Assembly (NCBI GenBank): GCA_947037125.1
Contig: CAMQTJ010000010.1
Span: forward strand, 1 to 50,609
Reading direction: 5' to 3'
Source: an uncultured Holdemania sp.
Lineage (GTDB): Bacteria; Bacillota_I; Bacilli_A; Erysipelotrichales; Erysipelotrichaceae
DNA: 50,609 bases
Shown: piece after piece, positions 1,459 through 50,609 of the stretch
How the letters are laid out: every line of letters begins with the position of its first letter
Numbering within the stretch: the stretch's first letter is position 1
Notes under the pieces: model-generated
What the model saw: only the letters and a program-made list of their open reading frames with translations
Told to the model about the DNA's origin: nothing
Database searches by the model: none
Translations under genes and position numbers: made by a program

Positions 1459-1551
1459 TAAAAAAATCCATCTAAGGATTTTTTTATTTTATATGTGGCT
1501 TTCGCCAACTTCAACGGGGGAAAGAAGTTTAGTCAAATCTTCTTGACTAAA
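1459..1551 (-). ncRNA. Candidate small RNA with C-rich hairpin loop and own terminator
   Basis: On the minus strand four hairpins follow each other: TTTAGTCAA/TTGACTAAA (1551-1528), AACTTC/GAAGTT with loop TTTCCCCCGTT (1529-1507), TGGC-GAAA-GCCA with a GNRA tetraloop (1507-1496), and a terminator AAAAAATCC/GGATTTTTT with a U-run (near 1485-1460). A TATACT -10 box lies at 1560-1555; no good -35 is visible. The GNRA loop and U-run make sense only on the minus strand. It could instead be the structured 3' UTR of the MFS gene, whose stop is at 1612. A loop of CCCCC is typical of Gram-positive sRNAs that pair with Shine-Dalgarno sequences. No known RNA family was recognised. Confidence 0.5.
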
Positions 1552-1611
1552 TATAGTATACCGTTGTTTTGTGTAAGTTATATGACTACTTTGTGAAAAT
1601 TACATGAAATA

Positions 1612-11015: not shown

Positions 11016-12647
11016 TTATTTTCCTAAGGCTTTTTTTACATCAGAGCATATATTAATTACTTGTGTTCCAAATATTATCTGAAAGTCACAACTGCTAACT
11101 ACAGCTCCCATTGCCCCTAATTCTTCAACCCAAAATTCTTTAGGTTGCACAACTGATGAATCTTTTACTTTAACTCTAAGTCTAGTAGCACAATTTTCAA
11201 CTGATAACATATTATCACTACCGCCAAAACCTTCAATTATTTTTCCTGTAAACATTTCTGATTTTGATTGACCTTTTGTATCACTTTTACCATTATCCAA
11301 TCCAATTGAAGATTGGTAATCTTTTTTACTTGATAGGCTAATCTTTGCATCTCTACGTCCAGGTGTTGGAATATCAAATTTCAAAATTGCCCATTTAAAG
11401 ATGAAGAAATATAATCCAAAATAGATAGGCACTAGGTACAATAATGACATAGCCTGAAGCTTATCTGGTTGTAGGATATTCGGAATCATGAATATTAATG
11501 CAAATCCTTGCACTGATACTTGTGTTAATTCAGTTAAGAAAAAAGATAATCCAGCTAGAGGTACATGAATCAAATAGTAAAGAAGTGGATTAGCAAATAA
11601 TATTGTAAATTCTATTGGTTCTGTAACTCCAACAAATGTTGCTGTAAATAAAGCTGGAATAAGTAATGCTAAAACTTTTTTGCGATTTTCTTTTTTTGCT
11701 GTAAAATACATTGCTAAAGTAGCACCTGGGAAACCTCCTAGGTTAGTTAATAAACGACCACTAGTAAAGTCTCTTATTAAATATGAAGTCGCTGTTGGCG
11801 AACCTATTAATGCATTTGAAATATTAGTTGTCCCTAAATACTCAATTCCATCTATCATCATTGCTCCACCCAATTCAGTATAACGTAAAGGAAGAGTTAA
11901 TAAATGATGTAATCCAAATGGTAATAACGCTTTGTCAACACATCCATAAACAAATGTTCCTAACAATCCCGTTTCTCCAATGAATTTAGCTAATAATTGA
12001 ATTCCTTCATTAAACATTGGCCATATAAAGTAAATAAGTGCTCCTAATATAGTCGCTACAAACGGAGTAAGTACCATTACAAATTTTGCACCTGCAAAAA
12101 ATGATAAGAAATTTGGAAGTTTAACTTCCCCATATTTATTCATTAAGATTGCTGACGCAGATCCTGAAATAATTGCAACAAATATACTTGTATCATATGT
12201 GAATATTCCCAAAACATTAGTGAAAAGCTTAGTGAAAATTAAAGCTTCATCATATAACATTCCTTTTGTTTCCATTAAGAATTCTACATTAAGTGTTAAT
12301 GCAGTAATACCATCAACTGATGCTAATATTCCAATAGCAGTATTTACACACATAAGCATGAATACTCCTACAAAAGCAGCATATCCTTTATTATTTTTAG
12401 ATAAACCAAAAGATAATCCAATAACAAACCATAGAGGTAAATTTCTCATAATCATTGAAGCCATCTTTGATAATATTAACGCAATTGTATGAAACAGTGA
12501 ACCTGGTTCTAAGATAAAGTTAACTAATGGACTCATGAACCCCATTAATAAACCACAAATAACTAATACGATGATTGGTATCATCATTGCGCCAGCTATA
12601 TATTGAAATTGTCCTGTAAACTTTGAAAACATTTTTTTCATATACAT
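11016..12647 (-). CDS. PTS EIICB permease, glucose/glucoside family
   Basis: 543 residues. The EIIC domain (about 1-405) has around ten membrane segments and the family's substrate-site motif GVTEPIEF. A hydrophilic linker is followed by the EIIB domain (about 455-543), with the phosphocysteine near residue 486 in ENCATRLRV. It imports and phosphorylates a hexose, pentose, glucoside or polyol; the sequence alone does not tell which. The start at 12647 follows CAGGAGGGAAT; the frame extends 12 codons upstream without a ribosome site. It is the first gene of the sugar operon. Confidence 0.92.
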   Translation of the reverse strand: MYMKKMFSKFTGQFQYIAGAMMIPIIVLVICGLLMGFMSPLVNFILEPGSLFHTIALILSKMASMIMRNLPLWFVIGLSFGLSKNNKGYAAFVGVFMLMCVNTAIGILASVDGITALTLNVEFLMETKGMLYDEALIFTKLFTNVLGIFTYDTSIFVAIISGSASAILMNKYGEVKLPNFLSFFAGAKFVMVLTPFVATILGALIYFIWPMFNEGIQLLAKFIGETGLLGTFVYGCVDKALLPFGLHHLLTLPLRYTELGGAMMIDGIEYLGTTNISNALIGSPTATSYLIRDFTSGRLLTNLGGFPGATLAMYFTAKKENRKKVLALLIPALFTATFVGVTEPIEFTILFANPLLYYLIHVPLAGLSFFLTELTQVSVQGFALIFMIPNILQPDKLQAMSLLYLVPIYFGLYFFIFKWAILKFDIPTPGRRDAKISLSSKKDYQSSIGLDNGKSDTKGQSKSEMFTGKIIEGFGGSDNMLSVENCATRLRVKVKDSSVVQPKEFWVEELGAMGAVVSSCDFQIIFGTQVINICSDVKKALGK

Positions 12648-50224: not shown

Positions 50225-50262
50225 TTCCTTGAACATCTGTTTAATTTTATGATTAAAATAAC

Positions 50263-50403
50263 ATAACATAATATCACATATTACTAACACACAATCAATT
50301 AAAGTTAATGGTATATTAAGTGTGTAAGAAAAATAATAGTTCTTACACATATGAATACAACCCCCTATTGTAATCATAAATATTCTATCCCTTATAAAAT
50401 AAA
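50263..50403. repeat. 141-bp tandem repeat, copy 1
   Basis: Matches 50469-50609 with three mismatches over 141 bases (50286-50350 region only); the period is 206 bases. The repeat includes a TATATT -10-like box, a 10-bp hairpin and a CCCCC-loop hairpin. Confidence 0.95.
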
Positions 50404-50425
50404 GAAACCCGTTGAGGTTTTTTTA
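50321..50425 (+). ncRNA. Candidate small RNA with CCCCC hairpin loop, copy 1
   Basis: Hairpin 1 is TGTGTAAGAA/TTCTTACACA (50321-50349, 9-base loop). Hairpin 2 is GA-x-TACAA/TTGTA-x-TC with loop CCCCCTA (50353-50375). The end is AAACC-CGTTGA-GGTTT plus a T-run (50405-50424). A TATATT -10-like box lies at 50312-50317; the -35 is poor. The total is about 100 bases. The order (hairpin, C-loop hairpin, terminator) mirrors the element at 1459-1551. No family recognised. Confidence 0.5.
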
Positions 50426-50468
50426 TTTTGTTTGTTTATATTTATCTATTTAATCAATAAAAATCACT

Positions 50469-50609
50469 ATAACATAATATCACATATTACTAACACACAA
50501 TCCATTATAGTTAATGGTATATTAAGTGTGTAAGAAAAATAATAGTTCTTACATATATGAATACAACCCCCTATTGTAATCATAAATATTCTATCCCTTA
50601 TAAAATAAA
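50469..50609. repeat. 141-bp tandem repeat, copy 2, reaching contig end
   Basis: Second copy of 50263-50403. The last 55 bases (50555-50609) are identical to 50349-50403; the contig stops there. Further copies may follow in the genome. Confidence 0.95.
50527..50609 (+). ncRNA. Candidate small RNA, copy 2, cut by contig end
   Basis: Same hairpins as copy 1. The one change in hairpin 1 (C to T at 50554) turns a G-C pair into G-U, keeping the stem. The terminator would lie beyond the contig end. Confidence 0.4.

Follow-up and report, generated by a model that had tools for sequence, protein, structure and literature searches.

A predicted multicopy small RNA family with C-rich loops in the Erysipelotrichaceae and its promoter likeness to htrA and a two-component regulator gene

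We analysed a window of 50,609 nucleotides (contig C10 of an uncultured Holdemania genome), whose last 347 bases hold two copies of a repeated unit with a period of exactly 206 bp, spanning 50265-50609. Compared from 50263 to the contig end, the copies differ by three mismatches (50297 A/C, 50302 A/T and 50348 C/T), in line with the three differences that the first-pass annotation had counted. Each copy carries, in 5' to 3' order, the direct-repeat box AACATAATATCACATA, a -10 box (TATATT), hairpin 1, hairpin 2 and the single strand ATTCTATCCCTTATA. Copy 1 also has an intrinsic terminator; copy 2 is interrupted by the contig end, and its terminator would fall past it. The -10 box, the CCCCCTA-loop hairpin and the terminator after copy 1 were all found as the annotation had described them, as was its first hairpin, with a stem of 11 rather than 10 bp. 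It had also read the change at 50348 as a compensated one in stem 1. The C to T exchange does give a tolerated G-U pair, but it is one-sided rather than compensatory and proved little alone. The features are listed here, R2 and R3 being the covariance and promoter models described below.

50265..50280, plus strand: copy 1 operator, direct repeat AACATAATAT-CACATA with a 10-bp period; most conserved columns of 40 aligned promoters; R3 match at 50262-50319, E=2.6e-8. These are the first half-sites of an array of 3-4 repeats that extends to about 50305.
50312..50317, plus strand: copy 1 -10 box TATATT, extended form GGTATATT; the TAT..T columns are nearly invariant in the promoter alignment.
50320..50350, plus strand: copy 1 hairpin 1, 11-bp stem GTGTGTAAGAA/TTCTTACACAT, loop AAATAATAG; minimum free energy (MFE) fold; two-sided changes among relatives in 10/10 modelled pairs.
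50351..50377, plus strand: copy 1 hairpin 2, loop CCCCCTA at 50361-50367, the proposed C-rich seed; MFE fold; 9/9 modelled pairs covary.
50382..50396, plus strand: copy 1 single-stranded motif ATTCTATCCCTTATA, the proposed second C-rich seed; nearly identical across most relatives.
About 50396..50429, plus strand: copy 1 intrinsic terminator AAACC-CGTTGA-GGTTTTTTT, from sequence and fold.
50471..50486, plus strand: copy 2 operator; R3 match at 50468-50525, E=5.1e-7.
50518..50523, plus strand: copy 2 -10 box TATATT, by correspondence with copy 1.
50526..50602, plus strand: copy 2 RNA, with hairpin 1 at 50526-50556 (one G-U pair), hairpin 2 at 50557-50583 and the single-stranded motif at 50588-50602; R2 match at 50471-50606, 100.1 bits.

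Beyond the two copies in the window, full copies lie on contig C74 (10977-11118, minus strand) and on contig C12 (559-696, 1370-1506 and 1581-1718), and cut copies lie at the ends of contigs C101 and C74. Since C74 opens with the 3' end and terminator that match copy 2, the assembly evidently broke at the repeat. Counting joined fragments once, the genome holds at least seven copies, so that the annotation's figure of at least two was correct and understated. As judged from reading translations, the flanking genes vary from an ABC exporter pair in the window to acetate kinase on C101 and an XRE-type regulator on C12.

Plain DNA similarity yielded convincing foreign copies in two genomes only, with quite different stem letters and the same layout, and covariance models were therefore needed. 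A first model (R1), built from six copies of the genome itself, found matches in 19 of 118 relatives. The second (R2), built from 65 matches, detected the element in 244 of 273 Erysipelotrichaceae genomes, covering 52 of 60 genera and 144 of the 152 high-quality genomes, often with two to seven copies per genome, many of them in tandem. Across the phylum, matches at E<=1e-4 occurred in 20 of 295 genomes, all 20 of them Erysipelotrichaceae; no sampled genome outside that family had one at this cut-off, and the sister family gave a few weak matches to the model. Exact-pattern matches confirmed by the model were found in Holdemania, Anaerorhabdus furcosa, Traorella, Solobacterium and many uncultured Erysipelotrichaceae. 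Those outside the family (Chryseobacterium, archaea, Lachnospiraceae and others) had no model match and were set aside as chance.

We then asked how far the fold is maintained across these relatives, the covariation analysis that the annotation had proposed. In the alignment fitted with R1, each of the 19 modelled pairs shows two-sided changes in some sequences, and 91.1% of cells are paired, compared with 61.6% in shuffles and 27-45% in controls with slid partners. Because this alignment leans toward the model, 48 non-redundant copies were also folded one by one. Their mean MFE z-score was -4.0 against dinucleotide shuffles; exactly two hairpins formed in 46 of the 48, and CCC lay inside a hairpin loop in 44 of 48, as against 143/450 (32%) when the flanks were shuffled around a fixed C run. 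In hairpin 2 the loop letters are conserved in relatives and the stem letters are not. The constant parts are the loop CCCC(C)UA, the hairpin 1 loop GAUAAUAR, the strand AUUCUAUCCC(C)UUAUA (that is, UAUCCC(C)UUAUA) and the promoter, while the stems vary freely. Nearly all copies have both the C-rich loop 2 and the C-rich single strand, and several genera have a C-rich terminator loop as well. The GAUAAUAR loop of hairpin 1 (50331-50339 and relatives) is kept across genera, its stem is not, and it is not C-rich. Thus the structure is retained through complete turnover of stem letters, with abundant two-sided changes, and the reading of the unit as a multicopy small RNA (sRNA) with a fold conserved across relatives was borne out. 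The presence of multiple copies in a genome, which often stand in tandem and at the ends of contigs, might also suggest a mobile or palindromic repeat of the REP or MITE kind that carries a promoter and terminator by chance. We rejected this as very improbable: nearly all stem letters differ across 52 genera, yet fold, promoter spacing and loops are kept; 144 of 152 good genomes carry the sRNA, usually in 1-5 copies; and the regions read contained no transposase or target duplication.

Forty promoters align almost gap-free as ATCACATAATTTCACATA-TTT-AACATA-TTT--CGATA----TTGGTATAnT, with 3-4 half-sites at a 10-11 bp period leading up to an extended -10 and with no -35 consensus. The operator consensus of the unit, upstream of the extended -10, is the direct repeat (A/C)ACATAAT(A/T)TCACATA. 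Known sites for Rex, CcpA, CodY, Fur, CiaR and WalR were compared by eye and dropped, the present site being a direct repeat of 10-11 bp period with other letters. R3, a promoter model using sequence only, was run against 39 genomes. R2 mostly fails in the sister family; the hairpin RNAs that follow the same promoter there are different ones, with the loops CUCUCCC, UUCCC or CCCUCUCCC (genomes G040, G045, G047, G042, G038 and G049). Within the Erysipelotrichaceae the promoter also precedes other short RNAs with CCTCCC or CCTTCCTTCC (loci L155 in G001, L143 and L166 in G012, and L145 in G011), stretches that mimic the anti-Shine-Dalgarno end of 16S rRNA.

R3 matches were also found directly upstream of htrA and of a gene for an OmpR-type response regulator that is followed by a histidine kinase gene (Pfam PF00072+PF00486 for the regulator, PF13365 for HtrA). 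We quantified this with a position weight matrix (PWM) scan against a reversed-sequence null, the strict threshold being the 99.9th percentile, 2.2 per 250 bp; by chance about 0.1 passes would be expected among 60. In the sister family 13 of 15 regulator genes passed, or 14 of 15 counting G045, which has an R3 site just upstream of the gene, and 13 of 14 htrA genes passed the strict threshold. In the sister family one operator thus stands before C-rich sRNAs, htrA and the regulator gene alike, whereas among the Erysipelotrichaceae the strict PWM accepted it only at the sRNAs and at 2 of 16 htrA genes; at the regulator gene it was absent by this standard in 15 of 15 genomes. Upstream of htrA in the window's own genome there is only a degenerate repeat (AACTTCACACAAATAACATAATAAATCCACATT, 5% null). 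Autoregulation of the regulator seems to have been lost or altered in the Erysipelotrichaceae.

At the E cut-off applied, 38 of the 39 genomes have the regulator, most of them a close ortholog of at least 60% identity; in the window's own genome the ortholog lies on contig C3 at 65984-66640. The 20 regulator proteins compared, from both families, agree in every letter of GSDRVVDDTLRRLR, the stretch predicted to contact DNA. We infer that this response regulator activates the sRNA genes. A different activator, with an operator that only partly coincides with that of the htrA and response-regulator promoters, would leave the sRNA real and would account for the missing operator at the regulator gene in the Erysipelotrichaceae. 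We regard it as rather unlikely, since nearly every genome has the regulator and its recognition stretch does not vary, and since one operator serves regulator, htrA and C-rich sRNAs within the sister family (for example G040, G045, G047, G042 and G049).

Two further observations concern the regulator locus. In most sister-family genomes the regulator promoter carries, besides the direct repeats, an overlapping inverted repeat ATTGCCAT-N-ATGGCAAT, a putative second operator (L219-L233). The regulator-kinase pair often lies directly 3' of glmM, a cell-wall precursor gene for phosphoglucosamine mutase by its translation (L186 and several regulator loci, such as L234 and L236); in the window's genome it comes after an unrelated lipoprotein/hydrolase gene (L245).

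A second element with a C-rich loop lies near the other end of the window, on the minus strand, with these parts.

1463..1606, minus strand: candidate diverged sRNA of the same kind; R2 25.2 bits, E=0.072; R3 10.6 bits; three more copies on contig C1.
About 1552-1606, minus strand: repeat-type promoter of this candidate, with its -10 at 1555-1560.
1528-1551, minus strand: its hairpin 1.
1508-1529, minus strand: its C-loop hairpin, loop TTTCCCCCGTT; the candidate also has a GGCGAAAGCC hairpin.
1463-1492, minus strand: its terminator.

The annotation had called the element at 1459-1551 unrelated to the tandem unit, which is not clearly so: its R2 score is the third highest in the window, where the next noise match reaches 17.9 bits, and both this match and that to R3 are weak. 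Its copies on C1, a contig of the same genome (62044-62199, 64087-64244 and 64307-64408), are 82-86% identical. The core TAGTCAA..TTTGAC..AAACTTCTTTCCCCCGTTGAAGTTGGCGAAAGCC is near-identical in all four copies and the promoter looks related, two of the C1 copies having the form TTTTCACATT...CATATAACAT. The element looks like another C-loop sRNA family of the same kind, and the annotation's suggestion of a class of C-loop RNAs in this organism is upheld.

Each unit would then be an independent small-RNA gene. In 31 loci compared, no neighbouring gene recurs at more than 5, which supports action in trans; the unit has the own promoter and terminator, the lack of a constant neighbour and the covarying structure that are expected of a trans-acting base-pairing sRNA. 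The intrinsic terminator at the end of the unit recalls attenuators, and one might take the unit for a cis-acting leader (riboswitch or attenuator) of the next gene. There is no common downstream gene, however; copy 1 precedes copy 2, and in the genome itself the neighbours are as different as an ABC transporter and acetate kinase, so that we rejected a leader as having almost no chance of being right.

Since the promoter matches those of htrA and of the two-component regulator, the trans-acting sRNA probably silences translation within a cell-surface stress response. In the mechanism we propose, a regulator of the OmpR/PhoB family would bind the direct repeats of 10-11 bp period that lie 5' of the extended -10, turning on the sRNA gene together with htrA under cell-envelope or secretion stress. 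The resulting RNA, predicted at about 100-110 nt, would consist of two hairpins and the terminator. Several mRNAs may be kept from translation by pairing of their G-rich Shine-Dalgarno regions with the loop CCCC(C)UA and the strand UAUCCC(C)UUAUA of this RNA, joined in some genera by a C-rich terminator loop, and the several gene copies could provide dose and slightly different pairing ranges. Hfq was found in none of the 25 genomes searched, in a search that did match Hfq of B. subtilis, and pairing is therefore probably Hfq-free. A duplex scan of 64 start regions of the genome gave energies no better than a reversed-site control, and specific targets are thus unsupported. The best duplex with the CCCCCUA loop was at a gene whose translation reads as mannose-PTS-IID-like, with the ribosome site AGTAAGGGGGCTACAC, and did not exceed the control; this open reading frame lies on the minus strand of the window, its start at position 12202 of the reverse complement.

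The absence of a signal in the target scan would also agree with a structured sRNA that has a protein or RNA partner (a sponge or decoy, or a site for a KH-type protein), in which AUUCUAUCCC(C)UUAUA and GAUAAUAR would be binding sites rather than mRNA seeds, and the single-stranded motif is more strictly conserved than an anti-Shine-Dalgarno seed requires. The fact that the sister-family RNAs keep C-rich loops while their other letters differ fits pairing with G-rich ribosome sites instead, and we consider a partner of this sort unlikely. Our favoured explanation, an Hfq-independent, multicopy base-pairing sRNA that blocks Shine-Dalgarno sites in an envelope-stress regulon like those of CiaRH and LisRK, appears likely; from sequence we infer its transcription, regulator binding, stress signal, anti-Shine-Dalgarno action and targets.

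The Erysipelotrichaceae are common gut bacteria for which the literature searched reports almost no small RNAs. Searched by cmscan with all 4227 families of Rfam 15, the window and homologous loci gave no hit at the gathering score, and none for the sRNA at E<=2; in the open-access literature we found no paper that describes this Erysipelotrichaceae sRNA. In this sense it is undescribed, as the annotation had surmised, although Listeria and streptococci are known to have sRNAs of its kind (multicopy, C-rich, Shine-Dalgarno-blocking, under a two-component system). What is new for the Erysipelotrichaceae is a nearly universal structured sRNA family outside Rfam 15, with a covariance model, named culturable hosts such as Holdemania filiformis DSM 12042 and Anaerorhabdus furcosa ATCC 25662, a predicted regulator and a predicted co-regulated protease.

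C-rich loops and strands with a UCCC motif block Shine-Dalgarno sites in sRNAs of Gram-positive bacteria (PMC4132741). Among them, LhrC1-5 of Listeria monocytogenes are multicopy, carry UCCC in loop, single strand and terminator loop, block Shine-Dalgarno sites, depend on LisRK and are induced by cell-envelope stress (PMC4132741), and LisRK is reported to affect htrA (PMC12826053). The Erysipelotrichaceae sRNA is likewise multicopy, with C-rich motifs in loop and single strand and, for some of the genera, in the terminator loop too. It differs in its sequence, in having no Rfam match, in its extra, C-free hairpin 1 and in its bacterial family; LhrC moreover binds Hfq, which was not found in the 25 genomes searched. 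The streptococcal csRNAs, several similar ones per genome, are controlled by the OmpR-type system CiaRH, which also controls htrA, through direct-repeat sites at strong promoters (PMC8186281, PMC12826053). Several similar sRNAs per genome and a direct-repeat promoter are shared with the family described here, but the sequences are unrelated at Rfam sensitivity, and the CiaR box TTTAAG-N5-TTTAAG is not found in a promoter that reads ATCACATAATTTCACATA...ACATA...CGATA...GGTATAnT, with (A/C)ACATA repeats of 10-11 bp period.

Across the order, whose members are gut and animal-associated bacteria, it is conceivable, at somewhat less than an even chance, that one ancient two-component system has kept its operator and a split between HtrA and C-rich sRNAs that work without Hfq, with the bodies of these RNAs recast or exchanged from one family to the next (CCCCUA in the Erysipelotrichaceae, UUCCC/CUCUCCC in the sister family, CCUUCC in some genera). 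If so, CiaRH with the csRNAs and LisRK with LhrC would be examples of a circuit that recurs in the Firmicutes or is ancestral to them. The present sRNA family opens a wider question to testing, whether HtrA and multicopy C-rich sRNAs under envelope-stress two-component systems form one old circuit or arose repeatedly in the Firmicutes.

With RsaE/RoxS and other UCCC-type sRNAs of low-GC Gram-positive bacteria the sRNA shares C-rich loops that block ribosome binding sites, as proposed here, and it is set apart by the lack of an Rfam match and by other regulators. RsaE/RoxS and these other sRNAs are not known to be multicopy in tandem. RsaE is conserved between Staphylococcus and Bacillus (PMC4409812). 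Since the Erysipelotrichaceae sRNA has no Rfam match and a different operator, the best reading is that it belongs neither to LhrC nor to the csRNAs and forms a separate family that would work like both.
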